Source: Ruminiclostridium herbifermentans (GTDB lineage Bacteria > Bacillota > Clostridia > Acetivibrionales > DSM-1351). From it: DNA of 64,000 nt. Position 1 is the stretch's first letter; each line of letters starts with the position of its first letter. A model generated the notes under the pieces. The model had not been told where the DNA came from. It saw only the letters and a list, made by a program, of their open reading frames with translations, and did not search any database. Of the stretch, positions 4,856 to 60,688 are shown piece by piece. The DNA is taken from positions 372,001 to 436,000 of the forward strand of contig NZ_CP061336.1 in the NCBI RefSeq assembly GCF_005473905.2. Direction: 5' to 3'. Position numbers and translations under genes: made by a program.

Positions 4856-7800
4856 ATGCGAATGCGTAAAAAGGCAACGTCTATCTTATTGGTACTATCA
4901 ATGTTGGTAACATTATTTGCATCCGGACTTACTGCTTTTGCGGCTTCAAGTCTAGATGTCAAATTTAGTAACAATGGAAGTTCAGAAACTTCAGCAAATA
5001 CAATAAACGCGAACTTCCAAGTGACTAATAATGGTAGCTCAGCTGTTAATTTGGCAGATCTCAAATTAAGGTATTACTTTACTAAGGACAATGACACTGC
5101 ATTAAATTTCTACTGCGACCATGCAGCAACAATGGGTCCTAATGGAAGTGATTATACTGGTATTACAAGCAATGTAACAGGTAAGTTTGTACAAATGAGC
5201 TCACCTACTTCAAATGCTGATACATACATTGAAGTTGGCTTTACATCCGGTAGTCTTCCAGCTGGAGGAACATTAACAGTTCAGACTAGAACTTCTAGAA
5301 CCGATTGGACAAACTTTAATTTAGCTAACGACTATTCATACCTTTCTTCAGGTTCATTTGTAGCTAATGAGAAAGTTACTGCTTATTTAGGCGGTAGCCT
5401 TGTATCAGGTAAAGAGCCAGGCGGAACACAAACACAGGATCCTGCAATAGCTCCAACATCTGGAACTTTTGACAAGACAGCTCCTGCTGACTTATCAATA
5501 ACTTTGACACCTAATGGAAATACATTCAAAGGCATCACAGGTTTAATTAATGGTACTGACTACACAGTATCAGGCAACACAGTTAAAATCTTAAAGAGTT
5601 ATATGTCAAAACTTTCAAATGGTACATATAACTTAACATTTGATTTTGGTGCATCAAAAAATCCTGTATATACATTAACTGTTAAAGGTGATGTAGTAAC
5701 AGATGGACTTAAAGTAGAAATAGGAAAAGTAACTGGTAAAACAGGTGAAACTGTAACAGTACCTATAACTATGGCAAACGTAGCTAAAGTAGGTAATGTT
5801 GGAACATTCAATTTCTATGTTGGATATGATAAGGCTCAGTTACAAGCAGTATCAGTAACAGCTGGTAATATAGTTAAAAATGCAGCTGTTAATTTCTCAA
5901 CACAGATTAAAGATGGAACAATTAGTTTCGTATTCCTAGACAACACAATAGGTGATGAGCTTATTACTTCTGATGGAGTATTAGCTAACATTCAGTTCAA
6001 GATAATAGGAACAAAAGATACAGTAACAACAGTTAAGTTCAACGAAGGCGGAGCTTTTGGTAATGGCAACATGTCAAAAATAAACAGCGTTGACTTAATT
6101 AACGGTAGCGTAACAATAAAGGGAGATACAATCCCAACACAAGGATTAAAAGTAGAAATCGGAACAGCATCAGGTAAAACTGGTGATACAGTAACAGTGC
6201 CAATCACTTTTGCAGATGTAGCAAAGGCTGGTAATGTTGGAACATTCAATTTCTATGTTGGATATGATAAGGCTCAATTACAAGCAGTATCAGTAACAGC
6301 TGGTGAAATCGTTAAGAATGCAGCTGTAAACTTCTCAACACAGATTAAAGATGGAACAATTAGCTTCGTATTCCTAGACAACACAATAGGTGATGAACTT
6401 ATTACTGCTGATGGAGTAGTAGCTTACATTAAGTTCAAGATAATAGGAACAAAAGATACAGTAACAACAGTTAAGTTCAACGAAGGCGGAGCTTTTGGCG
6501 ATGGAAACATGGCTAAAATTTCTGACGTTGCATTTACAAATGGTAGTGTAACAATTAAAGCAGATGTTATCCCAACAGATGCATTAAAAGTAGAAATCGG
6601 AACAGCATCAGGTAATACTGGTGATACAGTAACAGTGCCAATTACTTTTGCAGATGTAGCAAAAGCAGGTAATGTTGGAACATTCAATTTCTATGTTGGA
6701 TATGATAAGGCTCAATTACAAGCAGTATCAGTAACAGCTGGAGAAATCGTTAAGAATGCAGCTGTAAACTTCTCAACACAGATTAAGGATGGAACAATCA
6801 GCTTCGTATTCCTAGACAACACAATAGGTGATGAGCTTATTACTGCTGATGGAGTAGTAGCTTACATTAAGTTCAAGATAATAGGAACAAAAGATACAGT
6901 AACAACAGTTAAGTTCAACGAAGGCGGAGCATTTGGCGATGGCAACATGGCTAAAATATCCGACGTTACATTTACAAATGGTAGTGTAACAATAAAGGGA
7001 GATGTAATCCCAACAAAAGGACTTAAAGTAGCAATTGGAACAGCAGCAGGTAATACTGGTGATACAGTAACAGTACCTGTAACTTTCGCAGATGTAGCAG
7101 GTGCAGGTAATGTTGGAACATTCAACTTCTATGTTGGATATGATAAGGCTCAATTACAAGCAGTATCAGTAACAGCTGGTGAAATCGTTAAGAATGCAGC
7201 TGTAAACTTCTCAACACAGATTAAGGATGGAACAATTAGCTTCGTATTCCTAGACAACACAATAGGTGATGAGCTTATTACTGCTGATGGAGTAGTAGCT
7301 TACATTAAGTTTAAGATAATAGGAACAAAAGACACAGTAACAACAGTTAAGTTCAACGAAGGCGGAGCATTTGGCGATGGCAACATGGCTAAAATATCCG
7401 ACGTTACATTTACAAATGGTAGTGTAACAATAAAGGGAGATGTAATCCCAACAAAAGGACTTAAAGTAGCAATTGGAACAGCAGCAGGTAATACTGGTGA
7501 TACAGTAACAGTACCTGTAACTTTCGCAGATGTAGCAGGTGCAGGTAATGTTGGAACATTCAACTTCTATGTTGGATATGATAAGGCTCAATTACAAGCA
7601 GTATCAGTAACAGCTGGTGAAATCGTTAAGAATGCAGCTGTAAACTTCTCAACACAGATTAAAGATGGAACAATTAGCTTCGTATTCCTAGACAACACAA
7701 TAGGTGATGAACTTATTACTGCTGATGGAGTAGTAGCTTACATTAAGTTCAAGATAATAGGAACAAAAGATACAGTAACAACAGTTAAGTTCAACGAAGG

Positions 7801-10800
7801 CGGAGCATTTGGCGATGGCAACATGGCTAAAATATCCGACGTTACATTTACAAATGGTAGTGTAACAATAAAGGGAGATACAATCCCAACAAAAGGATTA
7901 AAAGTAGAAATCGGAACAGCATCAGGTAATACTGGTGATACAGTAACAGTACCTGTAACTTTCGCAGATGTAGCAGGTGCAGGTAATGTTGGAACATTCA
8001 ACTTCTATGTTGGATATGATAAGGCTTTGTTACAAGCAGTATCAGTAACAGCTGGTGAAATCGTTAAGAATGCAGCTGTAAACTTCTCAACACAGATTAA
8101 GGATGGAACAATCAGCTTCGTATTCCTAGACAACACAATAGGTGATGAGCTTATTACTGCTGATGGAGTAGTAGCTTACATTAAGTTTAAGATAATAGGA
8201 ACAAAAGACACAGTAACAACAGTTAAGTTCAACGAAGGCGGAGCATTTGGCGATGGAAACATGGCTAAAATATCCGACGTTACATTTACAAATGGTAGTG
8301 TAACAATAAAGGGAGATGTAATCCCAACAGATGATTTAAAAGTTGAAATCGGAACAGCAGCAGGTAAAACTGGTGAAACAGTAACAGTACCTATAACTAT
8401 GGCAAACGTAGCTAAAGTAGGTAATGTTGGAACATTCAACTTCTATGTTGGATATGATAAGGCTCAGTTACAAGCAGTATCAGTAACAGCTGGTGAAATC
8501 GTTAAGAATGCAGCTGTAAACTTCTCAACACAGATTAAGGATGGAACAATTAGTTTCGTATTCCTAGATAACACAATAGGTGATGAGCTTATTACTGCTG
8601 ATGGCGTATTAGCTAACATCAACTTCAAGATAATAGGAAATATTGATACTACAACAGTTGTTAAATTCAACGAAGGCGGAGCTTTCGGCGATGGCAACAT
8701 GGCAAAAATAACTAAGATTGAATTTGTAAATGGTAGTGTAGCTATAGATGGTGATGGAAAACTTCCAGCAACAATAGCTCCTACAACTGTAAACGTTAAT
8801 TTAAATAATCCAGCAGATGTTGTTGTAACACTTACTCCTAACGGAAACACATTCGCTGGTATCAAAGGCTTAGCAAGTGCTAACTATAAAGTATCTGGAA
8901 ATACAGTTACTTTATTAAAGAGTTACATTGCAACTCTTCCAGTAGGTAAGACATCACTTGAATTTGACTTTGGTATGGATTCAAATCCTGTATTGACAAT
9001 CAATGCTACTAAAGTTGATTTAGGTTCAGATCTCTATGTAACAATAGGTGATGGAGCAGGTAAAAAAGGTGATGTAATAACAGTACCTGTAACTATGGCA
9101 AACGTAGCTAAAGTAGGTAATGTTGGAACATTCAACTTCTATGTTGGATATGATAAGGCTCTTCTAAAGGCTACTAAAGTAGAAGCAGGAGAGATTGTTA
9201 AGAATGCAGCTGTTAACTTCTCAACACAGATTAAAGAAGGAACAATCAGCTTCGTATTCCTTGATAACACAATAGGTGACGAGCTTATTACTGAAGATGG
9301 CGTAGTAGCATACATTACATTTGAAGTATTAGGCGCTTACAAACAGACTACACCTGTAGCATTTAAAGAAGGTGGAGCATTTGGCGATGGCAACATGGCT
9401 AAGATTACTAAGATCAAATTTGAATCTGGTAGCGTGGCTATAGATGGTGAAGAGCTTCCTTCTAAACCAGCAACAATAGCTCCTACAGCTGTAATATTTG
9501 ATAAGTACGCTCCAGCTGATATCAAAATAACATTGACACCTAATGGAAATACTTTCGTAGGTATCACTGGTTTAACAAAGGGTACTGATTACACAGTATC
9601 AGGAGACACTGTAACACTCTTAAAGAGCTACTTAGCTAAACAAGCTATTGGTTCACAATCACTTACATTTGACTTTGGTACAACAAGCAACCCAGTATTA
9701 ATAGTGACATATGTTGATACAACTCCACAACAGAGCAAAGACCTAGTTGTTATGTTCCACAACAACAACATGGCAGCAACAGGCAACACTATTACTGGAA
9801 GCTACAAGATAGTAAATAAAGGTACAAGCACAATTAACCTAGCAGATGTTAAAGTAAGATACTACTTTACTTCAGATTCTGCAGCAGAAAACGTATTCTA
9901 CTGTGACCATGCAGCAGCAACTGATGCAAACGGTGGAAACTACACTGCATTAACAAGTGCTGTAAAGGGTTCATTCGTTAAGATGAGCACAACTACTTCA
10001 AATGCAGATACTTACCTTGAAATTAGCTTCTCTTCAGGTAGTATTCCAGCAGGTGGATCAGTAGAATTACAGGCAAGAGTAGCTAAGACTGACTGGAGCA
10101 ACTACAACATGGCAAATGACTACTCATATAAAGCTGCTGGTTCATATACAGAGTGGGAAACAATTACAGCTTACAAAAATGGAACACTTGTATTTGGTAA
10201 AGAGCCAACATCAACTCCAGAAATTAAGCCAGCATCAATAACTCCTACAACTGCAACATTTGATAAGTATGCTCCTAAGGATGTAGTAGTTACTATGACT
10301 CCTAACGGAAATACATTTGCAGGTATTACTGGTTTAACAAATGGTACACAATACACAGTATCAGGAAACACTGTAACAATTAAGAGCAGTTATCTTGCTA
10401 CTTTAACTACAAATACTACAAAGACATTAACATTTGACTTTGGAACAACAAGCAATCCTACATTAACTATCTCAATTAAGGATTCAAAACCAGTTGAAGG
10501 TCTTGATGTAACAATTGGAACAGCTTCTGGAACAGCTGGTGATGTAATAACAGTACCAGTAACTTTTGGAAATGTTGCAAAGGTAGGTAATGTTGGAACA
10601 TTCAACTTCTATGTTGGATATGATGCTACTAAATTAGAAGCAGTATCAGTAACAGCTGGTGAAATCGTTAAGAATGCAGCTGTAAACTTCTCAACACAGA
10701 TTAAAGACGGTAAAATCAGCTTTGTATTCCTAGACAACACAATAGGTGATGAGCTAATTACTGCTGATGGAGTATTAGCAAACATCAAGTTTAAGGTATT

Positions 10801-13648
10801 ATCAAAGACAGCAGGAACAACAGCAGTTAAGTTCACTGATGGCGGAGCTTTTGGCGATGGCAACATGGCTAAAATATCAGCTATTAACTTCAAAGATGGT
10901 AGCGTAACTATAACAGAAGGTCCTGTTGTAGCTCTTAATGTAGCATTAGGAAAAGCAGCTGGAACAGCTGGTGACATAGTAACAATACCAGTAACTTTTG
11001 CAGACGTAGCAAAAGTAGGTAATGTTGGAACATTCAACTTCTATGTTGGATATGATGTTGCTCAATTAGAGGCAGTATCAGTAACAGCTGGTGAAATCGT
11101 TAAGAATGCAGCTGTAAACTTCTCAACACAGATTAAAGACGGTAAAATCAGCTTTGTATTTCTAGACAACACAATAGGTGATGAGTTAATTACAGCTGAT
11201 GGTGTATTAGCAAACATCAAATTTAAAATAGTAGGAACTAAAGCTACAACTACAACAGTTAAGTTTACTGAAGGCGGAGCTTTTGGTGATGGCAACATGA
11301 CTAAAATCTCAACAGTTAACTTCACAAATGGTAGTGTAACTATAACAGAAGGTCCTGTTGTAGCACTTAACGTTAAGATAGGAACAGCTATAGGATCAGC
11401 TGGTAATGAAATAACAGTACCAGTAACTCTTGCAGACGTAGCAAAAGTAGGTAATGTTGGAACATTCAACTTCTATGTTGGATATGATAAGAATCTATTA
11501 GAAGCAGTATCAGTAACAGCTGGTGAAATCGTTAAGAATGCAGCTGTAAACTTCTCAACACAGATTAAAGACGGTAAGATCAGCTTTGTGTTCCTAGACA
11601 ATACAATAGGTGATGAGTTAATTACAGCTGATGGTGTATTAGCAAACATCAAATTCAAAGTATTAGGAACACAAGAAGTAACAACACCTGTAGTTTTCAC
11701 TGAAGGCGGAGCTTTTGGTGATGGCAACATGAAGAAGATATCTGTAGTTAATTTTGAAAATGGTAGTGTAACAATTAAAGAAAGTGTAGCAGATCCAATA
11801 TCAGAAATAAATCCTACATCAGCAACATTTGATAAGTATGCTCCAGATGATATCAAAGTTACTTATTCAGCTAACGGAAATACTTTCAAAGGTATTACTG
11901 GTTTAGTAAGCGGAACTGATTACACAGTATCAGGAAACACAGTAACAATATCAAAGGCTTACCTTTCAACATTAAGCTTAGGAACTACTTCATTAACATT
12001 TGATTTTGGTTCAAGTAGAAACCCTGTATTAACTATAACTGTAAAAGATACAACACCAGTTCCTACTGAAAACCTTATCGTTGAATTAGGAACAGCTACA
12101 GGTAAAGCTGGAGATACTGTTGTAGTACCTGTAACAATGAAGAATGTTGCAAAAGTAGGTAACGTTGGAACATTCAACTTCTATGTTGGATATGACGTTG
12201 CACAATTAAAAGCAACAAAAGTAACAGCAGGTGATATAGTTGTAAATGCACCTGTAAACTTCTCAACAAAGATTGATACAGCTAAGGGAACAGTTAGCTT
12301 CGTATTCCTAGACAATACAATAGGTGACGAACTAATTACTACTGATGGTGTATTAGCAAATATTACTTTTGAAGTAATAGGAACTGAAGAAGGAGAAACA
12401 ACTGTTAAATTCAACGAAGGCGGAGCTTTCGGAAATGGTAACATGGCAAAGATAGCTGATGTTGAATTAAATAATGGTAGTGTTGCTATAAAAGGAGCTC
12501 CTGTAATAGTACCAGCAACATTAAGCGCAACAACTGCAAACTTTGATAAGTTTACTCCTGCAGATGTAGTAGTTACTTATACAGCTAACGGAAATACTTT
12601 CAAAGGTATTACTGGTTTAGTAAGTGGAACTGATTACACAGTATCAGGAAACACAGTAACAATATCAAAGAACTACTTATCAACATTAGCAGTTGGTACA
12701 AAAGCACTTACATTTGATTTTGGTACAGCAGATAAAAACCCTGTATTAACTATAACTATAAAAGATACAACACCAGCTGCAAAGCTTAGCGTTGAAATAG
12801 GAACAGCATCAGGAAAAGCTGGAGACGTTATTACAGTACCTGTAACAATGAAGAATGTTGCAAAAGCAGGCAACGTTGGAACATTCAACTTCTATGTTGG
12901 ATATGACGTTGCACAATTAAAAGCAACAAAAGTAACAGCAGGTGATATAGTTGTAAATGCACCTGTAAACTTCTCAACAAAGATTGATACAGCTAAGGGA
13001 ACAGTTAGCTTCGTATTCCTAGACAATACAATAGGTGACGAACTAATTACTACTGATGGTGTATTAGCAAATATTACTTTTGAAGTAGTTGGAACTGCAA
13101 AGACAACAACAGTTGTTAAATTCAACGATGGCGGAGCTTTCGGAAATGGTAACATGGCAAAGATAGCTGATGTTGAATTAAAGAATGGTAGTGTTGCTAT
13201 AGATGCATCAACACCAGTTCCTACTGGATTAGCATTAGAAATAGGAACAGCACAAGGAACTGCTGGTACTACAGTTACAGTACCTGTAACAATGAAGAAC
13301 GTATCAAAGGTTGGAAATGTTGGTACTTTCAATTTCTACATGAACTATGATCCTACATTACTAACAGCAACAAAAGTAACTGCTGGAGACATAGTTGTAA
13401 ATGCACCAGTTAACTTCTCAACTAAGATAAACGCTACAGCTGGTACAATAAGCTTTGTATTCCTTGACAACACTATAGGAGATGAGCTTATCACTACTGA
13501 TGGAGTATTAGCAAATATTACATTTACAGTATTGGGAACAGGTAAAACTGCTGCTGTTTCCTTCACAGAAGGCGGAGCTTTCGGTGATGGCAATATGGCA
13601 AAAATTAAGGATGTTTCATTTACAAACGGTAGTGTGAAACTAAACTAA
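4856..13648 (+). CDS. Primary cellulosomal scaffoldin 1: 14 type I cohesins, 2 CBM3, 6 X2
   Basis: A secreted 2930-residue scaffold. Signal peptide at 1-29 (cleavage near AFAA), CBM3 at about 30-185, X2 at about 195-280, cohesins 1-7 in tandem (about 283-1300), X2, cohesin 8, X2 (to about 1620), a second CBM3 (about 1627-1782), X2, cohesins 9-11 (about 1880-2310), X2, cohesin 12, X2, then cohesins 13 and 14 to the C-terminus. Most cohesins carry the core [12 protein letters not shown] and [11 protein letters not shown]. The CBM3 modules bind crystalline cellulose and the cohesins bind enzyme dockerins; X2 modules are reported in related species to help solubility and cell-surface attachment. 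There is no dockerin, SLH domain or sortase signal, so it is a primary-type scaffoldin like CipC or CbpA but longer. Start ATG after AGGAGG. It heads a cip-cel type operon. Cohesins 2-6 are nearly identical at DNA level. Confidence 0.97.
6141..8755 (+). repeat. Tandem 438-bp cohesin repeats (cohesins 2-7)
   Basis: Six consecutive cohesin units with a 438-bp (146-codon) period, start points near 6141, 6579, 7017, 7455, 7893 and 8331. Units 2-6 are almost identical down to synonymous positions; the units from 7017 and 7455 differ at only a handful of bases. Unit 7 differs more in its N-terminal part. Other cohesins in the same gene are clearly more diverged. This pattern points to recent unequal crossing-over or gene conversion, and copy number here could vary between strains or be miscollapsed in assembly. 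Confidence 0.92.
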
Positions 13649-13760: not shown

Positions 13761-15938
13761 ATGAGAAAAGGTATTAAGAGAATTAGTGCAATGGCCGTTG
13801 CAGCTTCAATGTCATTATCAGTAATGGTTCCTTCAGCTGTATTAGCAGCACCTGGTGATGAAATCACAGGTCCAGTGAACCCAATATATGCTGAACGTTT
13901 TAACACTATGTATAGTAAAATAATGGCTCCAAATAGCGGATATTTCAGTCCAGATGGAGTTCCATACCATACAATTGAAACAATGAACGTAGAAGCTCCT
14001 GATTATGGTCACGTAACTACAAGTGAAGCTTTCAGTTATTACATGTGGTTAGAAGCTATGAACGGAAGATTAAATGGAGATTTCTCCGGATTTAAAAAAT
14101 CATGGGAGATAGCTGAAAAGTATATAATCCCATCAGAATTGGATCAGCCTGAAACTAGTATGAGCAGATATGATCCTAACAAACCAGCTACATATGCTCC
14201 AGAATGGCAGGACCCAAGCAAGTATCCAGCACAGCTAGACACCAGTGCTCCTGTTGGAAGAGACCCAATAAATAGTGGATTAAAATCAGCTTATGGAACT
14301 AGCATGATATATGGTATGCACTGGCTCCTAGACGTTGATAACTGGTATGGATTTGGTAACAGAGGAGATGGAACTTCTAAGAATTCATACATCAACACAT
14401 TCCAAAGAGGTGAGCAGGAGTCAACTTGGGAAACAATACCACAACCATGCTGGGATGCAATGAAGTTTGGTGGTAGAAATGGATTCCTCGACCTGTTTAC
14501 AGGTGACAGTTCATATGCACAACAATTTAAGTATACAAATGCTCCGGATGCAGATGCTCGTGCCGTTCAAGCTACTTACCTTGCAAATCAAGTAGCAAAG
14601 GCAAAAGGTATAAATATAAGCACTTATGTACAAAAAGCATCTAAGATGGGTGACTATTTAAGATATGCAATGTTCGATAAGTATTTTAGAAAAGTAGGAG
14701 ATTCAAAACAAGCAGGTACAGGATATGATGCTTGTATGTACTTGCTCTCATGGTATTATGCATGGGGTGGTGGAGTTACTTCACAATGGTCATGGATTAT
14801 TGGATCAAGCCACAACCACTTCGGATATCAGAATCCATTTGCAGCTTATGTTCTATCAGCAGATGCTGACTTTAAACCAAAGGCAGCTAACAGTTCAGCT
14901 GACTGGGCTAAGAGTTTAGATAGACAAATTGAATTCTATCAATGGTTACAGTCTGCTGAAGGTGCTATAGCAGGTGGAGCTAGTAACTCATACAATGGTC
15001 GTTACGAGACATGGCCAGCAGGAACATCTACATTCTATGGTATGGGTTATGTAGAAAATCCTGTATATGCTGACCCAGGTAGTAATACATGGCCTGGTAT
15101 GCAAGCATGGTCAATGCAGCGTATAATGCAATTATATTACGAGACTGGCGATTCAAGACTTAAGAACTTAGCTGATAAATGGGCAGCATGGATTATCTCA
15201 GAAATTAAATTTGAAGATGGAACATTTACAATTCCTACAACAATAGATTGGGAAGGACAACCTGATACATGGAATGGATTCTCATCATTCACTGGTAATC
15301 CAAACTTACATGTAATAGTAACAGCTCGTGGAAGAGACTTAGGTGTTGCTTCTTCAATTATCAATGCATTAACTTACTATGCTGCTGCATCAGGAAATCA
15401 AGCAGCAAAAGAAACTGCTAAGAAACTTCTTGATACTATATGGGTTAACTATGCAGATGAAAAGGGTATAGGAGCACCAGAAACACGCTTAGACTATAGC
15501 CGTTTCAATCAGGAAGTATATGTTCCTGCAGGTTGGTCAGGAACAATGCCTAATGGTGACAAGATTCAACCAGGTATTAAGTTTATAGACATTCGTTCAA
15601 AATACAAGCAGGATCCTAACTGGCCTCAGGTTGAAAGATACTTGCAAACAGGAAGAGATGAAGATGCTCCAACAATCACATATCACAGATTCTGGGCTCA
15701 AGCTGAGTATGCTGTTGCTTGTGGTGTTTATGCAATGTTATTCCCAACTGATGGTCCATCACTAAAAGGTGATGTTAACGATGATGGTTCAGTTGATGCA
15801 TTAGACCTTGCAGCAATGAAGATGTATCTATTAGGAAATAATGTTGCATCATGGAATGCTGCTAATGCAGATGTAAATGATGATGGATCAATTGATGCTA
15901 TCGATTTTGCAGCAATAAAGAAGATATTACTTTCTTAA
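13761..15938 (+). CDS. GH48 processive cellulase (exo-type) with type I dockerin
   Basis: The 725-residue secreted enzyme has a signal peptide (1-30), a GH48 domain (about 35-655) and a C-terminal dockerin (about 663-725) with two Ca-binding repeats ([12 protein letters not shown] and [12 protein letters not shown]). GH48 enzymes such as CelF, ExgS and CelS move along cellulose chains and release cellobiose, and are usually the most abundant cellulosome enzyme. The catalytic acid Glu is visible in [16 protein letters not shown]. It is the second gene of the operon, exactly as celF follows cipC in C. cellulolyticum and exgS follows cbpA in C. cellulovorans. The ATG follows AAAAGGGG. A second GH48 gene (47101) in this window is a close paralogue. 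Confidence 0.97.
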
Positions 15939-38209: not shown

Positions 38210-38224
38210 AACGAAATTAAGAAT

Positions 38225-40635: not shown

Positions 40636-41374
40636 GTTACGTGCGTCCAGCGAAGCTAGAGCACATTTGCTAGTATAAGTCTAGTACGGGAAATTACCAA
40701 AAAGCCCATTTATCTAAGTTGTACCTGCGTACCAGAGAAAGGAATAGGTAGTTACCTGCGAATTTAGGTTAAAGTAAACTAGCATAACGAGATAAATTAA
40801 TGCGTTAGCTAATTAATTCATGAACCTCACGGGGTAAACTATAGTATTGGCTTACTGGTACTCCCGTATAAACTTATTTAAATTGTATACTCCTAGTAAT
40901 TTATCAGCGAGCTAAGTTCAAATAAGCACAGCGAGTTAAAGTTAACTAAATTTAACTAAATATAAGATTAGTTGAAGTAAAAGCTAAAGAGGAAATATTT
41001 ACTGATGTAAATTAAATTAGAAAATATTTACAAAATTATAAAAAAATATAAATTTGACCATCGCAAGGTAAATTTTTCCAACGCATATATATATCAGCAT
41101 AAGTAAAAATATGTAAGTGGTTACATATTTTACTTAAATAAAAGCTAAATAAAATTTAGTAGTTATGAAAAACCAACTAGCCAAAATTATATTAAGGGGG
41201 TGAAATTATAATTCAGCTAGTTATCAATCTTTAATTACTAAAAGTTTATTTGATAAAAGCCTTTCAAATAACTGTAATGGATTGTGAACGACTGAATACA
41301 TGAGAAAAGCCTAAAAGATACAAATGGCGAAATGTTTGGTTTTCATACACATAAAAACAACAGGGAGGTACACT
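40636..41374 (+). promoter_or_regulatory. Long regulatory region of scaffoldin 2
   Basis: No gene is seen in 740 bp. CAGCGARnTWA-like words occur three times in the same direction (40648, 40905, 40929). The first lies just after the terminator in GTCCAGCGAAG, like GTCCAGTGAAG after the terminator before scaffoldin 3 and GACCAGCGTAA after the inverted repeat before scaffoldin 1. CCAACGCATATATATAT (about 41078) matches the motif of the other scaffoldins. From 41197 the GGGGGTGAAAT block and from 41290 GACTGAAT ... GGTTTTCAT are shared with the scaffoldin 1 leader. AACTAGC (41175-41181) can pair with GCTAGTT (41216-41222) around the GGGGG block. The frame of the scaffoldin runs up to an ATG at 41324, but that is leader sequence. 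Confidence 0.45.
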
Positions 41375-49525: not shown

Positions 49526-49735
49526 GTGCGGAAGTGTCCAGTGAAGATGAATCACACTAGTGATCAAAAGTATATACTAACAAAAAAGTTAAATCAGGCT
49601 AACTAAAGGGGAGTTTACTAACGCATGTATATAAGTGAAGAATAAAGTTTTTTTCGAGCTGTTGTTTCCGCATATATTCTACAACTTTCTTGCCGACGAA
49701 CCTCTAAAGTACTACCGCAATAGCATTGCAGTAGG

Positions 49736-49825
49736 AAAGAAAATGCTGACACAAACTATGACGGCAAAATAGATGCACTTGATTATGCAAAGTTGAAGAT
49801 TTATCTTCTAACTAAGAAATTGTAA
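49736..49825 (+). pseudogene. Orphan second dockerin repeat
   Basis: The frame reads KENADTNYDGKIDALDYAKL then KIYLLTKKL and a stop, very like the end of the GH48-2 dockerin ([20 protein letters not shown]). It is the 3' remnant of a lost dockerin gene or of a partial duplication of the GH48-2 gene end. No start or enzyme domain is attached. Confidence 0.85.
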
Positions 49826-50598: not shown

Positions 50599-51535
50599 GA
50601 GGTTTTAGTAATGTTAAAAAAGAAGATACTTTGCTTAATTGCACTATTAATGGCATTATCTGTTTTTACTCCAAGATTGTATGCACAAACAGCAGGTGAT
50701 TTACAAATATTGTTTAATAATAATGGAAATGCATCAACATCAAGTAATACGATAAATGCTAATTTTAAGGTGATTAATAACGGAAGTTCAAGTATAGACT
50801 TAGCAGATTTGAAATTAAGATATTATTACACTGCAGATTCTGATACGCCACAGAATTTCTTTTGTGATCATGCAGGTATGTTAAATGGATGGACGTACAC
50901 TGGTGTTACTGATAAGGTAACAGGTACATTTGGCAAATTAAGCCCTGCTGTCGCAAAAGCCGATTCATATTTTGAAGTAGGTTTCAAAGATGATGCTGGA
51001 ACTCTTTCAGCGGGAGGCTATATTGAAATCCAAACCAGAGTGGCAAGAAATGACTGGACAAATTATGATATGTCAAATGACTATTCATTTATGACTTTAA
51101 ATACATATGGTGACAACGATAAAATTTCCGCTTATATGAAAGGAGTTCTCATATATGGCGGTGTAACTAATATCAGTACTTCAACAATAACACCTACAGT
51201 TTTTACATATGACAAGTATACATCTTCAGATGTAACAATAACTCTATTACCATTTGGGAATGCATTTAAAGGAATAGTTGGACTGACAGAGGGAGAGGAA
51301 TACTCATTATCAGGAAACATTGTTACTCTAAAAGAAGAATATCTTAACAGCTTACCAATTGGAAATATAAAGCTTACCTTTGATTTTGGCGAAACAAATA
51401 ATCCAGAACTTACATTAACGGTTAAGGATACCACTCCAAAGGTTCTTTTTGACGCAAAAATTGGAACGGCTACGGGTTTACCAGGAGATACAGTAACAGT
51501 ACCTATTACATTTGAAAATGTAGCAAGGGCAAGTA
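50562..51535 (+). repeat. Duplicated scaffoldin 5' segment, copy A
   Basis: About 970 bp (leader, signal peptide, CBM3, first X2 and the start of cohesin 1) is nearly identical to 56581-57554. Identity is highest up to about 51405 and falls sharply within the first cohesin, beyond which the two genes are clearly different. This indicates recent duplication or gene conversion limited to the 5' part. Confidence 0.9.
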
Positions 51536-54500
51536 AAATAGGATCTCTTTATTTTTACATAAGCTATGATAATACCTTGTTAGAAGCAGTATCAATAGCA
51601 CCAGGTTCTATTGTACCAAATCCAGTAAGTAACTTTGCAACAAAAATAGATTCAAGCAAAGGTCAAATTAGTTTTATATTCCTAGATGTCACTATAGGTG
51701 ATGAGATGATTGAATCAGATGGTGATTTTGCCCAGATGACTTTTAGAATAAAGTCTACTGCACCAGCTATTACAACGCCAGTAAAATTTGATGAAAAGGC
51801 ATATGCTATGCCTGGTAGTATTGAATCAATGGCGAATACATATAATGGCAGTGTTGTTATAACGATTCCTGACTATGCAGCAATATCTCCTTCATCTGCC
51901 ACATTTGATAAAGGAGCACCTGAAGATGTTATAGTAACAGTAGAGTCTAGCGGATATACTTTCAATGGAATCACTGGATTAACAAATGGAACTGACTATA
52001 CAATTTCTGGTAATACAGTAACAATACTAAAGGAGTATCTTAATACTTTGCCAAAAGGTACAAAGGAACTTACCTTTGATTTTGGTGCAGCAAAAAATCC
52101 AAAACTTACATTAACAATTAAGGATACAAGACCAAAGCCTAGCTTTGATGCAATAATTGGAACGGCTGTGGGATTACCAGGTGAATCAGTAACCATACCA
52201 GTTTCATTTGAAAATGTAGCAGAAGCTGGCTATGTAGGTATGGGCGATTTTCTCATAGGGTATGATAATACTTTATTGGAAGCAATATCAGTAGTACCAG
52301 GTTCTATAGTAACAAATCCTGCAATAAATTTTTCGAGTAAAATTGAATCAAGCAAGGGTTTAATTAGTCTTGTTTTCCTAGATTACACTATAGGTAATGA
52401 GTTGATTAAAACAGATGGAGATTTCGCTTTAATTACTTTTAAAATAAAAAATGACGCCATTGCAACTACAACACCATTGGAATTTAAGCCATTAGAATTT
52501 GGTAGTGGTGCGAATACAATCAATGGCAGCATTACTATAAAAAGTCCTGAAATAGAAGCACCCAAAATAACTCCGACAAGTGCATCCTACATTTATGGAT
52601 CAGCATCTGACATAATAGTAACTCTTACTCCAAACGGAAATGTATTTAAGGGTATAAGCGGGCTGACTAAGGGAGTGGACTATATAGTATCAGGAGATAC
52701 AGTAACATTACTTAAAAGTTATCTTAATAAATTACCAACAGGTACAAAGATGCTTACCTTTGATTTTGGTTTGGAAGTAAATCCTACTTTGAAACTAACT
52801 ACTGAGATGTTAGCTTGTCCTACAACTGTAGGAATTGGAACTGTTTATGGTGCGCCAGGAGACATTGTAACTGTTCCTATTACTATTTCAGGTGTTAGAA
52901 ATGTAGGAGGAGTAGGAACCTTTAACATCTACGTGGGATATGACAAAACTTTACTTGAAGCAGTATCTGTTGAACCAGGTAATGTTATTATAAATCCCAA
53001 TGTAAACTTTTCTAGCAGAATTGATTCAAATACTGGTAAAATCTCAGCTGTATTTCTAGATAATACAATCGGAGATGAACTTATTTTATCCGATGGTATA
53101 ATAATGAACATGACATTTAAGGTGTTAAAAGCTGTAGGTACCTCAATTCCGATAGTATTTAATGATGGTGGAGTTTTTGGAGATTGGAATTTTGCTAAAA
53201 TAAGAGATATTGACTTTCACAATGGAAGTATTATGATATATAAAACTATTATACTTAATGTATCAGCTGGAAAGGTAACTGGACAAGAGGGTGAAATAGT
53301 AAGTGTACCTATTAGCTTTGATAATGTAACTGAAATGAATAATGTCATGGCTTGTGATTTTAAAGTGGGTTATGATTCTAATTTGCTAGAAGCAGTTTCA
53401 GTAGAGCCAGGCTCTATAGTTACTAATGCAGGAGTTGACTTTACAGCTGATATCAGTGCAGCTAGTGGAGTTATCAGCTTATTCATTAATTCAACAGAAG
53501 ATAGCCAATCCATTAGCGAAGATGGAGTATTTGCTAATATTAACTTTAGGTTAAAGACTCCTTCTGCAGCTGAAGTCATAACACCAGTAGAAATTAAAGA
53601 AATTGGAGATTTTACTGGACTAAATCTTAATCAAATTGCAATAAATAAAACAAATGGCAGTGTTACTATCATACGCACAACTGTTGTTGAGTCTCAAATA
53701 AACCCTTCAAATACATCTTTTGTAATAGGCAGTACAGATAGCCTTAAAATAACTCTTACTCCAAACGGTAATACTTTCAATGGCATTTCTGGATTGAGGC
53801 AGGGAACTGATTATACTGTGTCAGGAAATACTGTAACAATACGTGATAGCTATCTGAGAAGTCTTGAAGTGGGAATATTCAAACTAACTTTTGATTTTGG
53901 CATTGGTGAGAAAAATCCTGTTTTAGAAATAACAGTTAATGCAGGAACACCAGCTATATATCCTAATTATAGGTATGTATTTATAGATGATCTTACAAAC
54001 TTAGATATAAATATTGCTCCAAATGGAAATACCTTTTATGGAATTATTGGATTAACAGAGGGTACTGACTATACCGTATCAGGTAATAGTGTAACAATAC
54101 TAACAAATTATTTGGCTAAACTGTCGTTGGAAACAAAGGAACTTACCTTTGATTTTGGTATGCAAGTCAATCCTGTTTTAACAATATATCCAGTAATAGG
54201 GGAACGGTTCCCGCTAGATGTGAAAGTCGGAAATGTAACAGGTATTGAGGGTGATATTGTAACAGTACCAATCACACTTTCACATGTGAAGGATGTTAAT
54301 AATGTTGGAACCTTTAACTTCTATGTGGACTATGATAAGAATCTTTTAAAAGCAGTGTCAGTAGAACCGGGTGATATTATTACAAACCCTATTACAAACT
54401 TCTCTTCATTAATTAATGCTAATAATGGTTTTATATCATTTGTATTTTTAGATTATACTATAGGCGATGAAATTATCACAACCGATGGAGTATTAGCTAA

Positions 54501-56292
54501 TATAACATTTAAGATATTGGGAACTTCAGGAACAACAGCACCTTTAGTATTTAGACAAGGTGGAGCTTTTGGAAATGAAAATATGGCAAAAATAAACTCC
54601 ATTACTTTTACCAATGGAAGCGTTACTATAGATAATACCAGCAAACTCAAGATATCAATTGGAGACGTAACTGGTAATGAGGGTGAAGTAGTATCAGTGC
54701 CTATTAGCTTTGAAAATGTAGCACAATTAGGTAATATAGAGTTTTGTGATTTCAAAGTGGCTTATGATGCTAATTTGTTAGAAGCAATATCAGTAGAGCC
54801 TGGTTCTATAGTTACAAATGCAAATGATAATTTCAATAGTTATATTAATACAACAGATGGAGTTATTAGCTTCTTGTTTCTTGATAACACAGCAGGAAGT
54901 GAATTGATTAACACAGATGGTGTGTTTGCAAATATTAACTTTAAGCTCAAGAATCCTTCTGAACCTAAAATTACAACGCCTGTTACAATTCAGGAAATCG
55001 GAACTATTGGTGGTCCAAATCTTAACATGATGCCAATAAATAAAATAAGTGGAAGTGTTACTGTAATACGCACTACTAGTCCTGAGTATAAAATTAATCC
55101 TTCAACTGCATCTTTTGTATTAGGCAGTACCGATAACTTACAAATAACTCTTATTCCAAATGGAGATGACTTCTTTGGAATTCCACTTTTGTTGTATGGT
55201 ACTGATTATATAGTATCAGGAAATACTGTAACAATATCAAAGGATTACTTAAACAGTCTAAATGTTGGAATAAAGGAATTAACTTTTGATTTTGTCTACA
55301 GTGATAAAGATCCTGTGCTTGAGATAGAAATAAAAAAAGGAACACCATCGATATCTCCTACTAATAAGAATATGTATATAAATGCTTTTACAGACATAAG
55401 TGTCAATATTACTCCAAATGGAAACACTTTTAAAGGAATTGTGGGGTTAACAAAGGGAATTGACTACACAGTAGCTGGAAATAAAGTAACAATACTTAAG
55501 AGTTATGTGGATAGCCTTGAAATTGGAACAAAAGAATTGACTTTTGATTTTGGCATTGGTGTCAATAATCCTGTATTTAATATAAATGTTAAGCCAGGAA
55601 TACCATCTATAAGTCCTAATCTTGCTACAGTAGATAAATATAATTTTACAAGCTTATTTGTGAATATTACTCCAAATGGAAATACTTTTAAAGGAATTGT
55701 AGGGTTAACAGAGGGTGTTGACTATACAGTATCGGGAAATACAGTAACGATACTTAAAAGTTATATTGATACGCTGCAATTAGGTTTAAAGACACTTATA
55801 TTTGATTTTGGTATAGCAAACAATTCAAATTTGAATTTAAATGTAATTGATTCAGGCTTAGATCTTCCTCTTAAAGTAAGCGCAGGAATGGCACAAGGTT
55901 ATATAGGTCAAACAGTTACTATACCAATAATCTTTACAAAGGTTGTTAATGCAGGCAATATTGGAACATGCAATTTCTATTTAGTATATGACCCTTCTAA
56001 GGTAGAAGTGGTATCAGTAAATGCAGGTCCAATAGTTAAATCTTCAGCCATTAACTTTTCTAGTAGAGTTGATGCTGCTAAGGGGAAAATCAGTTTTGTA
56101 TTCCTTGATAATACCATAGGTGATGAATTGATTAAAGAGGATGGTATTTTTGCAAGTGTAACGTTTAAGATTATAGGCGGTCATGGTACAACAGTACCTA
56201 TCATCCTTGAAGAGGGCGGAGCTTTTGGTGATGCTGTTTTTTCTAAGATTAATAATGTTATAAGAGAAGATGGATTAATAATAATTAATTAA
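50611..56292 (+). CDS. Scaffoldin 3: CBM3, 8 X2, 7 cohesins
   Basis: The 1893-residue secreted scaffold has a signal peptide (1-26), CBM3 (about 29-185), X2, Coh1 (280-420), X2, Coh2 (512-647), X2, Coh3 (735-875), Coh4 (880-1023), two X2 (1027-1195), Coh5 (1200-1342), Coh6 (1345-1487), three X2 (1492-1749) and Coh7 (1752-1893). The cohesins are far more diverse than in scaffoldin 1. Coh3, 5 and 7 keep [11 protein letters not shown] or a close form. Coh4 and Coh6 form a separate subtype with ACDFKVGYD or FCDFKVAYD and a C-terminal block EIGDFTGLNLNQI or EIGTIGGPNLNMM in place of GGAFGDGNM, which suggests a different dockerin specificity. No dockerin, SLH or sortase signal. Start ATG after TAGGAGG. 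Confidence 0.94.
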   Translation: MLKKKILCLIALLMALSVFTPRLYAQTAGDLQILFNNNGNASTSSNTINANFKVINNGSSSIDLADLKLRYYYTADSDTPQNFFCDHAGMLNGWTYTGVTDKVTGTFGKLSPAVAKADSYFEVGFKDDAGTLSAGGYIEIQTRVARNDWTNYDMSNDYSFMTLNTYGDNDKISAYMKGVLIYGGVTNISTSTITPTVFTYDKYTSSDVTITLLPFGNAFKGIVGLTEGEEYSLSGNIVTLKEEYLNSLPIGNIKLTFDFGETNNPELTLTVKDTTPKVLFDAKIGTATGLPGDTVTVPITFENVARASKIGSLYFYISYDNTLLEAVSIAPGSIVPNPVSNFATKIDSSKGQISFIFLDVTIGDEMIESDGDFAQMTFRIKSTAPAITTPVKFDEKAYAMPGSIESMANTYNGSVVITIPDYAAISPSSATFDKGAPEDVIVTVESSGYTFNGITGLTNGTDYTISGNTVTILKEYLNTLPKGTKELTFDFGAAKNPKLTLTIKDTRPKPSFDAIIGTAVGLPGESVTIPVSFENVAEAGYVGMGDFLIGYDNTLLEAISVVPGSIVTNPAINFSSKIESSKGLISLVFLDYTIGNELIKTDGDFALITFKIKNDAIATTTPLEFKPLEFGSGANTINGSITIKSPEIEAPKITPTSASYIYGSASDIIVTLTPNGNVFKGISGLTKGVDYIVSGDTVTLLKSYLNKLPTGTKMLTFDFGLEVNPTLKLTTEMLACPTTVGIGTVYGAPGDIVTVPITISGVRNVGGVGTFNIYVGYDKTLLEAVSVEPGNVIINPNVNFSSRIDSNTGKISAVFLDNTIGDELILSDGIIMNMTFKVLKAVGTSIPIVFNDGGVFGDWNFAKIRDIDFHNGSIMIYKTIILNVSAGKVTGQEGEIVSVPISFDNVTEMNNVMACDFKVGYDSNLLEAVSVEPGSIVTNAGVDFTADISAASGVISLFINSTEDSQSISEDGVFANINFRLKTPSAAEVITPVEIKEIGDFTGLNLNQIAINKTNGSVTIIRTTVVESQINPSNTSFVIGSTDSLKITLTPNGNTFNGISGLRQGTDYTVSGNTVTIRDSYLRSLEVGIFKLTFDFGIGEKNPVLEITVNAGTPAIYPNYRYVFIDDLTNLDINIAPNGNTFYGIIGLTEGTDYTVSGNSVTILTNYLAKLSLETKELTFDFGMQVNPVLTIYPVIGERFPLDVKVGNVTGIEGDIVTVPITLSHVKDVNNVGTFNFYVDYDKNLLKAVSVEPGDIITNPITNFSSLINANNGFISFVFLDYTIGDEIITTDGVLANITFKILGTSGTTAPLVFRQGGAFGNENMAKINSITFTNGSVTIDNTSKLKISIGDVTGNEGEVVSVPISFENVAQLGNIEFCDFKVAYDANLLEAISVEPGSIVTNANDNFNSYINTTDGVISFLFLDNTAGSELINTDGVFANINFKLKNPSEPKITTPVTIQEIGTIGGPNLNMMPINKISGSVTVIRTTSPEYKINPSTASFVLGSTDNLQITLIPNGDDFFGIPLLLYGTDYIVSGNTVTISKDYLNSLNVGIKELTFDFVYSDKDPVLEIEIKKGTPSISPTNKNMYINAFTDISVNITPNGNTFKGIVGLTKGIDYTVAGNKVTILKSYVDSLEIGTKELTFDFGIGVNNPVFNINVKPGIPSISPNLATVDKYNFTSLFVNITPNGNTFKGIVGLTEGVDYTVSGNTVTILKSYIDTLQLGLKTLIFDFGIANNSNLNLNVIDSGLDLPLKVSAGMAQGYIGQTVTIPIIFTKVVNAGNIGTCNFYLVYDPSKVEVVSVNAGPIVKSSAINFSSRVDAAKGKISFVFLDNTIGDELIKEDGIFASVTFKIIGGHGTTVPIILEEGGAFGDAVFSKINNVIREDGLIIIN

Positions 56293-56617: not shown

Positions 56618-57554
56618 GAGGTTTTAGTAATGTTAAAAAAGAAGATATTTTGCTTAATAGCACTATTAATGGCATTATCTGTTTTTACTCCAAGATTGTA
56701 TGCACAAGCAGCAGGTGATTTACAAATATTGTTTAATAATAATGGAAATGCATCAACATCAAGTAATACGATAAATGCTAATTTTAAGGTGATTAATAAC
56801 GGAAGTTCAAGTATAGACTTAGCAGATTTGAAATTAAGATATTATTACACTGCAGATTTTGATACGCCACAGAATTTCTATTGTGATCATGCAGGTATGT
56901 TAAATGGGTGGACGTACACTGGTGTTACTGATAAGGTAACAGGTACATTTGGTAAATTAAGCCCTGCTGTTTCAAAAGCCGATTCATATTTTGAAGTAGG
57001 TTTCAAAGATGATGCTGGAATTCTTTCAGCGGGAGGCTATATTGAAATCCAAACCAGAGTGGCAAGAAATGACTGGACAAATTATGATATGTCAAATGAC
57101 TATTCATTTATGACTTTAAGTACATATGGTGACAACGATAAAATTTCCGCTTATATGAAAGGAGTTCTCATATATGGCGGTGTAACTAATATCAGTACTT
57201 CAACAATAACACCTACAGTTTTTACATATGACAAGTATACATCTTCAGATGTAACAATAACTCTATTACCATTTGGGAATTCATTTAAAGGAATAGTTGG
57301 ACTGACAGAGGGAGAAGAATACTCATTATCAGGAAACATTGTTACTCTAAAAGAAGAATATCTTAACAGCTTACCAATTGGAAATATGAAGCTTACCTTT
57401 GATTTTGGCGTAACAAATAATCCCGAATTAACATTAACAATTAAAGATACCACACCTAATCTTCCTTTTGATGCAAAAATTGGAACGGCTGTGGGTTCAC
57501 CAGGTGATACAGTAACAGTACCTATTACATTTGAAAATGTAGCAAAAGCAGGTA
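56581..57554 (+). repeat. Duplicated scaffoldin 5' segment, copy B
   Basis: Partner of 50562-51535. It covers part of the leader, signal peptide, CBM3, first X2 and the beginning of cohesin 1. Differences are few single bases until about 57424, then increase. Confidence 0.9.
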
Positions 57555-60500
57555 ATGTGGGAATTTGTAATTTTTACATAGGTTATGATAATACTTTATT
57601 AGAAGCAGTATCAGTAGCACCAGGCTCTATAATTAAAAATTCGCAAAATAATTTTTTCAGCACAATTAATTCAAACAAGGGTGAAATTAATTTTATATAC
57701 CTAGATAGCACTATAGGTGATGAGATGATTGAATCAGATGGTGAGTTTGCTCTAGTGACCTTCAAAATAAAGACCACTGCGACAGCAAAGACAACACCAT
57801 TGGAATTCGTTAAGAAACCATATACTGACCCTATTGGTGTACTTGAATTAATGGCAAATACAATCAACGGAAGCATTACTATAAAAAGTCCTGAAATATT
57901 GCCCACAATTTCACCTTCATATATAAAATTTGAAAAAGATACTTCTCTCGACGTAGTAGTATCAATAACACCTAATGGCAATACATTCAAAGGTATTATG
58001 GGTTTAGTACCTGAAATAGACTATACAATATCAGGTGATAAGTTAACAATATCAAAGGACTATCTCAACAAACTTCCAACAGGAACTATACAGCTTACCT
58101 TTGACTTTGGTTTAACAATAAATCCTGTATTAGCAATAACAGTTATGCCCGGACACGATCATCCTCTTACTTTAAAAATAGAAAATGTCATAGGTGAGCC
58201 AGACAGTATAATAAATGTACCGGTTACGCTTACAGGTATAGAGTATTGTGGAAATGTAGGAACCTTTAACTTTTATATAAAATATGACAAAGCATTTTTA
58301 GAGGCAGTGTCTGTGACTGCTGGAGAAATAATAAAAAATCCTAATGTTAACTTTTCTACAAACATCAATACCGATAAGGGGACAATCAGTTTTGTATTTC
58401 TTGATAATACCCTAGGTGATGAGTTGATTACTTCTAATGGGGTTTTAGCAAATATTCAATTTAAAACGTTATTGAGCGGAACAACTACTGTGAAATTTGA
58501 TGATAAATTTGCTTTTGCAGATGGCTCTATAAACGTAATACCTTATGTAAATCTAACCCCAGGAAATATTGACATAACGGCGATAGAATTATTCCCTAAA
58601 ATTAACCCAACTTCAGTCTCATTTGATATGTATAGCGTAACAGACATACCTGTAACTATTACACCAAATGGACATACTTTTAGAGGCATAACTGGACTAA
58701 CAAAGGGAATTGACTATACAGTATCAGGAAATACCGTAACTATTCTTAAGAGTTATCTAAAAACACTGGTATTGGGGACAAAGGTACTTACCTTTGATTT
58801 TGGTGTAGCAAAAAATCCTGTCTTAATATTAGAAACCAAAACAAGCCCACATAAGTTTTTGAATGTGAGAATTGGGACTGCAACTGGTAATAAAAATGAT
58901 ATGGTAACAGTGGCGGTGACACTTTCAAATGTGAAGGATGCAGGAAATGTGGGAACCTTTTTATTTGATGTTAAGTATGATAATACTATTTTAGAAGCAG
59001 TATCAGTGACCCCGGGTGACATTATTATTAATCCTGATGTGAACTATAGCACAAAAATTGATTCTAGTACTGGCACAATTAGAATGCTATTTTTAGATAA
59101 TACAATAGGTGATGAACTTATTACAACTGATGGAATATTAGCAAACATTACATTTAAGATATTAGAATCTGTAAATAACAAAACACCTATAACATTTAAA
59201 GAGGGTGGGGTATTTGGAGATGGAAAGTATGAAAAGATAGTAAATGTTAATTTCAACAATGGCAGTGTTGTCATAGAAGACAATCTAAGCCTTAATTTAT
59301 CAATTGGAGAAATAACTGGAAAAGAAGGTGAAATGGTAAAAGTTCCTATTAGCTTCAATAATGTTGCTAATTTAGGCAATATAGCGAGTTGTGATTTTAG
59401 AGTAGGTTATGATACTAACTTACTAGAAGTAGTATCTGTTGAACCAGGTCCTATAGTAACAAATTCAGAAGTGAATTTTGGTACTAATATTAGTACAACT
59501 AGTGGAGCTATCAGATTTTTATTTGTTGATTATACATCAGGAAGTGAATTAATTAACCAAGATGGTGTATTTGCAAATATCAATTTTAAACTCAAGACTC
59601 CTGCTGAAGCAAAAATTTCAACGCCTGTTACAATTATGGATATTGGAGCGTTTGTAGATTCCAACGTAAATCAAATGCCTGTAAGTTCGGGAAATGGCAG
59701 CGTTACTATTTATCGTACTTCTCTTTCTGAGGCTAAAATAAATCCTTCAGTTATATATTTTAAATTAGGCACTTCAATAAGCACATTAATAGAACTTACT
59801 CCAAATGGGAATAAATTTATTGGTATTTATGGCTTGAAAGTAGGCTATGATTATTCAGTGTCATTGAATACTTTAACACTACATAGTAGTTATCTTAACA
59901 GACTTGAACCTGGTAAAAATAGACTGATTTTTGACTTTGGTCTTGATGATAAAAATCCTGTGTTAGTAATAGAAGTTAGTGCAGGAACACCAACAATAAA
60001 TCCTAATTATAATATAGTAGATAAAAATGATTTATCAAACATAGTTGTAGAGCTCACTCCAAATGGAAATCCTTTTAATGGAATTATAGGATTGACAGAG
60101 GGAACTGACTACACGGTATCTGGAAATACATTAACATTACTTGCAAGCTATATAAACAATCTTGAGTGTGGTACAACGAGACTTATCCTTGATTTTGGTG
60201 TAACAAACAATCCAATTTTGAGTGTAAAAGTTATTGATTCAAGCGTAGAACTTCCTCTTGAAGTAACAGTAGGAACAGCAAAAGCTAGCCTAGGTAATAT
60301 GGTTAGTATACCAATTACATTTACAAATGTTGCTAACGTGGGAGATATTGGAACATGTAATTTTTATATAAGCTATGACCCTTCTATAGTTGAAGCGGTA
60401 TCAGTACAGGCAGGCTCAATAGTTAAAAATCTAGCAGTAAACTTTTCCAGTAGGGTTGATAATTCTAAGGGCGTAATCAGTTTTGTATACCTTGATAATA

Positions 60501-60688
60501 CCATAGGCGATGAATTGATTGACGAGGATGGTGTTTTTGCTTATATTACGTTTAAAGTTAAAGACTACTCTTCTACAATATCTCCTATCATCATTAAAGA
60601 GGACGGAGCTTTTGGTAATGCCACTTTTTCTAAGATTAATAATATTATAAAGGAAGATGGATATATATCCATTTATCGTCAAATGTAA
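56630..60688 (+). CDS. Scaffoldin 4: CBM3, 5 X2, 5 cohesins
   Basis: The 1352-residue secreted scaffold has a signal peptide (1-26), CBM3 (about 29-185), X2, Coh1 (279-420), X2, Coh2 (511-649), X2, Coh3 (743-882), Coh4 (886-1030), two X2 (1034-1204) and Coh5 (1206-1352). It is a shorter paralogue of scaffoldin 3: Coh4 is of the SCDFRVGYD subtype seen in scaffoldin 3 Coh4 and Coh6, and the last module matches scaffoldin 3 Coh7. Compared with it, one Coh-Coh and X2 block is missing in the middle, so in-frame module loss or gain has occurred. Coh1 is aberrant (NFIYLDSTIGDEMIESDGEF). ATG after TAGGAGG, 12 nt from the leader peptide stop. No anchoring module. Confidence 0.94.
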   Translation: MLKKKIFCLIALLMALSVFTPRLYAQAAGDLQILFNNNGNASTSSNTINANFKVINNGSSSIDLADLKLRYYYTADFDTPQNFYCDHAGMLNGWTYTGVTDKVTGTFGKLSPAVSKADSYFEVGFKDDAGILSAGGYIEIQTRVARNDWTNYDMSNDYSFMTLSTYGDNDKISAYMKGVLIYGGVTNISTSTITPTVFTYDKYTSSDVTITLLPFGNSFKGIVGLTEGEEYSLSGNIVTLKEEYLNSLPIGNMKLTFDFGVTNNPELTLTIKDTTPNLPFDAKIGTAVGSPGDTVTVPITFENVAKAGNVGICNFYIGYDNTLLEAVSVAPGSIIKNSQNNFFSTINSNKGEINFIYLDSTIGDEMIESDGEFALVTFKIKTTATAKTTPLEFVKKPYTDPIGVLELMANTINGSITIKSPEILPTISPSYIKFEKDTSLDVVVSITPNGNTFKGIMGLVPEIDYTISGDKLTISKDYLNKLPTGTIQLTFDFGLTINPVLAITVMPGHDHPLTLKIENVIGEPDSIINVPVTLTGIEYCGNVGTFNFYIKYDKAFLEAVSVTAGEIIKNPNVNFSTNINTDKGTISFVFLDNTLGDELITSNGVLANIQFKTLLSGTTTVKFDDKFAFADGSINVIPYVNLTPGNIDITAIELFPKINPTSVSFDMYSVTDIPVTITPNGHTFRGITGLTKGIDYTVSGNTVTILKSYLKTLVLGTKVLTFDFGVAKNPVLILETKTSPHKFLNVRIGTATGNKNDMVTVAVTLSNVKDAGNVGTFLFDVKYDNTILEAVSVTPGDIIINPDVNYSTKIDSSTGTIRMLFLDNTIGDELITTDGILANITFKILESVNNKTPITFKEGGVFGDGKYEKIVNVNFNNGSVVIEDNLSLNLSIGEITGKEGEMVKVPISFNNVANLGNIASCDFRVGYDTNLLEVVSVEPGPIVTNSEVNFGTNISTTSGAIRFLFVDYTSGSELINQDGVFANINFKLKTPAEAKISTPVTIMDIGAFVDSNVNQMPVSSGNGSVTIYRTSLSEAKINPSVIYFKLGTSISTLIELTPNGNKFIGIYGLKVGYDYSVSLNTLTLHSSYLNRLEPGKNRLIFDFGLDDKNPVLVIEVSAGTPTINPNYNIVDKNDLSNIVVELTPNGNPFNGIIGLTEGTDYTVSGNTLTLLASYINNLECGTTRLILDFGVTNNPILSVKVIDSSVELPLEVTVGTAKASLGNMVSIPITFTNVANVGDIGTCNFYISYDPSIVEAVSVQAGSIVKNLAVNFSSRVDNSKGVISFVYLDNTIGDELIDEDGVFAYITFKVKDYSSTISPIIIKEDGAFGNATFSKINNIIKEDGYISIYRQM

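Follow-up and report, generated by a model that had tools for sequence, protein, structure and literature searches.

A cip-cel cluster with four probably parallel primary scaffoldins in Ruminiclostridium herbifermentans

Introduction

Two copies of both cip and the GH48 gene were reported for R. sufflavum in 2017 (PMC5748583, passages available to us). The available passages of PMC10701907 give three scaffoldins for R. sufflavum and four for R. herbifermentans, all primary and possibly arising via gene duplication, and describe the gene order in R. herbifermentans MA18 as a scaffoldin, enzymes with orfX, a second scaffoldin, a second GH48 and two more scaffoldins. In the part of PMC11557425 at hand, R. 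herbifermentans is a simple-cellulosome producer with four simple primary scaffoldins of "5 to 14 Coh1 modules" each in a single operon, and C. cellulovorans has three primary scaffoldin proteins, just one of them inside the cluster. Here we describe a stretch of 64,000 bases (the window) covering positions 372001-436000 of the one-contig R. herbifermentans genome of 4,817,678 bases; its cip-cel locus very probably is the published MA18 locus. A preliminary description of the window had assumed one primary scaffoldin per mesophilic cip-cel cluster, a view outdated by what the three sources report for R. sufflavum and R. herbifermentans. The four-scaffoldin cluster is real and already published, and the arrangement of a gene for a sigma-I factor (SigI) beside it and the uneven evolution of the scaffoldins are modest additions.

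Four dockerin-less scaffoldins in one cluster

Four open reading frames in the window contain cohesin, X2 and CBM3 modules and neither dockerin nor SLH (Pfam matches counted at E <= 0.001):

4856..13648, + strand: scaffoldin 1, 2930 aa; N-terminal CBM3, 14 cohesins, 6 X2 and a second, internal CBM3
41324..46897, + strand: scaffoldin 2; one CBM3, 6 cohesins, 9 X2
50611..56292, + strand: scaffoldin 3, 1893 aa; one CBM3, 7 cohesins, 8 X2
56630..60688, + strand: scaffoldin 4, 1352 aa; one CBM3, 5 cohesins, 5 X2

Rebuilt from the match coordinates and listed after the N-terminal CBM3 (C, cohesin; X, X2), the module orders are XCCCCCCCXCXXCCCXCXCC, XCXCXCXCXCXXXXC, XCXCXCCXXCCXXXC and XCXCXCCXXC for scaffoldins 1 to 4, respectively. 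A signal peptide judged by eye suggests that the true start of scaffoldin 2 is near 41375. This protein also has a run of four consecutive X2 modules (45380-46438); 28 X2 modules were counted in the window and 29 genome-wide. The 33 cohesins of the window, including the single cohesin of OrfX, all scored above the Pfam cut-off and have no internal stop. Both the four scaffoldins without dockerins, with 14, 6, 7 and 5 cohesins, and the total of 33 had been proposed in the preliminary description and were recovered by the profile scan. Matches of the scaffoldins to SERRATE, DUF4131, NgoMIV, LTD and DUF1307 (Pfam) and to GerQ and similar families (NCBIfam) were attributed to chance or composition and disregarded.

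This content makes it very likely that the locus is the cip-cel cluster of R. herbifermentans, or of a very near strain, and that it encodes a cellulosome of the simple type, built on four primary scaffoldins in parallel. As in simple cip-cel clusters, a dockerin-less scaffoldin with N-terminal CBM3, X2 and type I cohesins is followed by dockerin enzymes of GH48, GH8, GH9 and GH5 together with orfX. A single primary scaffoldin is usual for simple cellulosomes, not required, and the window has four. The Pfam scan found neither of two traits of the complex Acetivibrio type, with no dockerin on any of the four primary scaffoldins and no SLH module in them or in OrfX. The absence of an adaptor/anchoring hierarchy had also been put forward in the preliminary description, and the parallel arrangement equals the published interpretation in the available passages of PMC10701907. 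From what is known of these families, each scaffoldin would be secreted and would bind cellulose through its CBM3, the X2 modules may hold it to the wall or the substrate, and all four would presumably dock enzymes out of one genome-wide pool.

The region is highly repetitive, as one would expect if the extra scaffoldin copies had been created by the assembly. Such an artefact is extremely improbable because exact repeats within scaffoldin 1 reach a length of at least 300 but stay below 350 bases and the genome is a single contig. Moreover, scaffoldins 3 and 4 differ by about 20-40% in most aligned stretches past the N-terminus, and scaffoldin 2 with its GH48 gene recurs in the independent assembly of another species.

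Enzymes of the cluster and the dockerin pool

The scaffoldin genes are accompanied by the following features, as identified by Pfam:

13761..15938, + strand: GH48 cellulase with dockerin, copy A
16075-17499, + strand: GH8-dockerin enzyme
17536-19707, + strand: GH9-CBM3-dockerin enzyme
20113-22704, + strand: CBM4_9-GH9-dockerin enzyme
23489..24142, + strand: OrfX, one cohesin behind an N-terminal segment that is hydrophobic by eye
24190-26754, 26916-29210, 29458-31068 and 32181-33620, + strand: three GH9 enzymes and one GH8 enzyme with dockerins
34304..35158, + strand: truncated GH9-dockerin remnant, covering GH9 profile positions 287-443 of 444
35471-38041, + strand: CBM4_9-GH9 enzyme with dockerin
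38252-38380, + strand: partial dockerin match between the CBM4_9-GH9 and GH5 genes
38896-40557, + strand: GH5 enzyme with dockerin
47101..49257, + strand: GH48 cellulase with dockerin, copy B
49718..49810, + strand: dockerin remnant with an internal stop

Twelve dockerin proteins were found in the window, one of which is the truncated GH9 protein at 34304-35158, leaving the 11 intact ones of the preliminary description. Decayed GH9-dockerin and dockerin pieces (34304-35158, 38252-38380 and 49718-49810) are interspersed among the intact genes, and a gene for an AgrB-type protein (L174:694-1341) is found downstream of the cluster.

The surplus of cohesins over dockerins that had been emphasized for the window disappears in the whole genome, where 37 cohesin and 85 dockerin matches were obtained (84 of the latter over the cut-off). 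The imbalance of 33 to 11 is therefore a local effect of gene placement. Four cohesin matches lie outside the window. One belongs to a second OrfX-like protein far from the cip-cel cluster (L168:11787-12542; C1:2696792, about 2.697 Mb), with a hydrophobic N-terminus and a single cohesin, in which 37 of the 39 invariant columns (defined below) are unchanged. The other three are weak and C-terminal, in a Kelch protein (L170:6260-7540), a laminin-G/FN3 protein (L171:5344-7185) and a Big_2 protein (L172:7880-10525); among these three, a whole-protein Pfam scan recovers the weak cohesin only in the Kelch protein, and the Big_2 protein has a Pfam dockerin after its cohesin-like stretch.

Dockerin residues were tabulated for 82 of the 85 matches, omitting two partial matches from the window and one match below the cut-off. 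Positions 10-11, which we take to be the specificity-setting residues, read [AS][LIV] in both segments of 70 of the 82 dockerins. The same residues are present in segment 1 of all 12 window dockerins and in segment 2 of 11 of them. That 70 of 82 dockerins share one kind of residue suggests a single enzyme pool common to all scaffoldins. The sole sizeable variant is AT at positions 10-11 (7/82). As a DNA pattern it matches in nine of the 11 genomes of the genus, R. herbifermentans and eight others, with zero matches in R. sufflavum and G008, and the reversed pattern, used as control, gave 0 matches in all 11. The seven pattern matches in R. herbifermentans are the seven AT dockerins, and the other genomes were counted as DNA pattern only. 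A dockerin class private to scaffoldins 3 and 4, for which the AT variant was the only candidate, was rejected because this DNA pattern also occurs in eight of the ten other genomes of the genus.

Scaffoldins 1 and 2 probably predate the split from R. sufflavum

Across the 11 genomes of the genus, R. herbifermentans included, we counted 37 cohesin matches in R. herbifermentans, 17 in R. sufflavum and 1-10 in each of the remaining nine; among the latter, G002 is presumably R. cellulolyticum, and we presume G004 and G007 to be R. josui and strain BNL1100. A quick tree was built from 77 cohesins of six of the 11 genomes, with few columns and with 30 of 72 inner branches open. It leaves out one 49-aa R. 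sufflavum cohesin cut by an N run, the three weak R. herbifermentans cohesins and the cohesins of the five other genomes. Several cohesins of scaffoldins 1 and 2 pair across the species border: S1_C14 with R. sufflavum A_C8 (support 100), S2_C5 with B_C5 (100) and S2_C6 with B_C6 (99). The two GH48 copies share 74% identity, compared with 88% between copy B and the GH48 behind the second R. sufflavum scaffoldin. Because of these pairings and of the higher GH48 identity between species than between copies, scaffoldin 2 and GH48 copy B predate the split between R. herbifermentans and R. sufflavum. We infer that a scaffoldin and its GH48 gene were duplicated prior to this split, which would have given rise to scaffoldins 1 and 2.

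For five pair comparisons of S1/S2 cohesins, the ratio of nonsynonymous to synonymous differences per site (pN/pS) was 0.12-0.30, the top value being that of S2_C5/B_C5 (0.30). We also scored 39 columns invariant in 32 reference cohesins, a set chosen without S2_C5 and R. sufflavum B_C5. These two keep 26 and 25 of the 39 columns, respectively, so that one cohesin, though divergent, has also been conserved between species.

Scaffoldins 3 and 4 share a nearly identical N-terminus and have diverged cohesins

None of the five other species in the cohesin tree, R. sufflavum being a draft, showed a scaffoldin corresponding to 3 or 4, and a later, probably lineage-specific step would have produced these two. 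Over the signal peptide, CBM3 and X2 (50605-51354 and 56624-57373) the two are 97-99% identical, and outside the N-terminus most aligned stretches show 60-80% identity. The simplest reading of this pattern is that the two N-termini were recently homogenised by gene conversion, with the cohesins presumably diverging. Neither this N-terminal identity nor the cohesin rates are discussed in the available passages of PMC10701907 and PMC11557425.

Most S3 and S4 cohesins pair mutually in the tree, on long branches. Six S3/S4 cohesin pairs gave pN/pS of 0.42-0.73, at pS of 0.29-0.65, as opposed to 0.12-0.30 for S1/S2; the pairs are not age-matched, S4_C4 occurs in two of the six S3/S4 pairs, and at its lower end the S3/S4 range comes near the value of S2_C5/B_C5. 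Faster protein divergence of the S3/S4 cohesins is thus a tendency, seen without a formal test. The S3/S4 cohesins keep 24-35 of the 39 invariant columns, with changes that include the NFY and FLDN stretches. There was no sign that they were imported from another genus, as tested with S3_C6 only: its nearest relatives are S4_C4 (64%) and S3_C4 (61%), followed by other cohesins from within the genus (up to 55%), in a search with matches in 30 of 58 genomes across the order. The solved structures nearest to S3_C6 are 1g1k and 2vn5/2vn6, which we take to be R. cellulolyticum cohesins.

The long branches and own pairings of most S3/S4 cohesins, their higher pN/pS and their substitutions at otherwise invariant columns, NFY and FLDN stretches included, are what one would see if scaffoldins 3 and 4 were specialised, their diverged cohesins taking a different dockerin subset to form distinct cellulosomes. 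We consider this unlikely, since relaxed constraint accounts for the same rates and no dockerin class specific to a scaffoldin was found, the AT pattern also being present in most other genomes of the genus. A second possibility is that scaffoldins 3 and 4 are redundant, under relaxed selection and heading for loss, a scenario that fits the elevated pN/pS and the decayed genes nearby, by which the cluster appears to shed parts. It is only somewhat unlikely: the frames of scaffoldins 3 and 4 are uninterrupted across 1893 and 1352 codons, at a pS of 0.29-0.65 between paired modules, and none of the six S3/S4 pairs, nor any other of the 11 cohesin pairs tested, has pN as high as pS.

We therefore retain four parallel primary scaffoldins as the very likely arrangement, against which three points have to be set. 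Some S3/S4 cohesins may be poor binders, or binders of other partners, because only 24-35 of 39 invariant residues are kept. The R. sufflavum draft has an N run in scaffoldin A, making the absence of scaffoldins 3 and 4 there uncertain. Finally, the cohesin tree has many open forks and few columns. No expression study of the four scaffoldins was found in the R. herbifermentans literature, as judged by titles and the openings of abstracts. For the alternative or condition-specific use that the preliminary description considered possible, the dockerins read gave no hint of partners specific to one scaffoldin. With conserved scaffoldins 1 and 2 beside faster-diverging scaffoldins 3 and 4, this organism offers a natural test case of whether extra backbones alter enzyme loading.

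A SigI gene without recognisable RsgI upstream of scaffoldin 1

The cluster is preceded by a regulatory region with these features:

1..1767, + strand: C-terminal part of a kinase of 1707 aa that starts upstream of the window; Pkinase, AAA, TPR, GAF, HisKA_3 and HATPase_c
1758..2423, + strand: response regulator with a LuxR-type output domain
3619..4365, + strand: SigI without recognisable RsgI (NCBIfam NF006173 and TIGR02895 over cut-off)
4466-4479 and 4503-4516, + strand: inverted repeat upstream of scaffoldin 1, perfect 14-base match, conserved in R. sufflavum
4514-4527 (upstream of scaffoldin 1) and 41053-41066 (upstream of scaffoldin 2), + strand: exact copies of the element TTTGACCANCGYAA

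The SigI gene is thus placed 490 bp upstream of scaffoldin 1, behind the large kinase and the response regulator. R. sufflavum has a matching kinase-regulator-SigI block, with SigI 94% identical, the kinase 80% identical over 572 aa and the regulator 86% identical over 216 aa. RsgI_N (PF12791) had zero matches in the whole genome of R. herbifermentans and likewise in that of R. sufflavum; the profile could overlook a strongly diverged RsgI, and it matched Bacillus subtilis as expected among 14 control genomes. SigI over the cut-off was present in nine of the 11 genomes of the genus, and in seven of these RsgI_N follows immediately after SigI (9/9 genes); G003 and G004 have neither. A tblastn search of ten loci found no kinase, regulator or SigI near other cip clusters, with more than 2 kb of upstream sequence in only L178, L179, L181 and L182. 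PMC10701907 contains no word starting with "sigma" or "SigI", and no account of a SigI without RsgI beside a scaffoldin was found by title or abstract opening, or in the available passages of PMC5748583, PMC6056542, PMC10575876 and PMC11557425.

The region upstream of scaffoldin 1 is strongly conserved in R. sufflavum, where TTTGACCANCGYAA occurs exactly, upstream of scaffoldin A only; the loci of other species (L178-L182) have no exact match. When two mismatches were allowed, the window gave three matches versus 2.41 expected. Such tolerant matches are at chance level, so only the two exact copies and their positions count as support.

Published sigma-I promoters carry a -35 element with an A-tract and a -10 element with CGWA. 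Upstream of scaffoldin 1 a CGTA is present, but no AAAA was seen by eye at a suitable distance before it, and this candidate promoter was rejected. Predicted sites in 41000-60999 were uninformative, with 10 terminator-like sites versus 8.4 expected and 113 promoter-like sites versus 95.8 (standard deviation 10.8).

The SigI regulator is the best lead from the cluster. One could imagine that SigI lost RsgI in the two multi-scaffoldin species, is now under the adjacent kinase and response regulator and drives at least one scaffoldin, and that the diverged S3/S4 cohesins in addition load other enzymes, giving two kinds of simple cellulosome; we regard this combination as quite improbable.

Comparison with described clusters

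The CipC cluster of R. cellulolyticum resembles the present one in its CBM3-X2-cohesin scaffoldin, in OrfX and, according to the available passages of PMC10701907, in having GH48 as first enzyme. It differs in having a single scaffoldin frame with eight cohesins and a SigI paired with RsgI elsewhere on the chromosome. Five X2 modules were counted genome-wide in G002, two of them in the CipC frame.

R. sufflavum DSM 19573 shares with R. herbifermentans the kinase-regulator-SigI-scaffoldin block and a second scaffoldin followed by a second GH48, whereas it has 17 instead of 37 cohesin matches and its draft showed nothing corresponding to scaffoldins 3 and 4. We observed two cohesin-rich frames, compared with the three scaffoldins of PMC10701907 (available passages). 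A 520-base N run lies within scaffoldin A of the draft (G009:C20:43859-44378, L177), and the published shorter third scaffoldin may be the portion of scaffoldin A beyond it.

Closest of all is the R. herbifermentans MA18 cluster itself, from which, as far as the available passages of PMC10701907 and PMC11557425 describe it, no difference was found: it has four primary scaffoldins with 5-14 cohesins, and its second GH48 is followed by two scaffoldins, as here.

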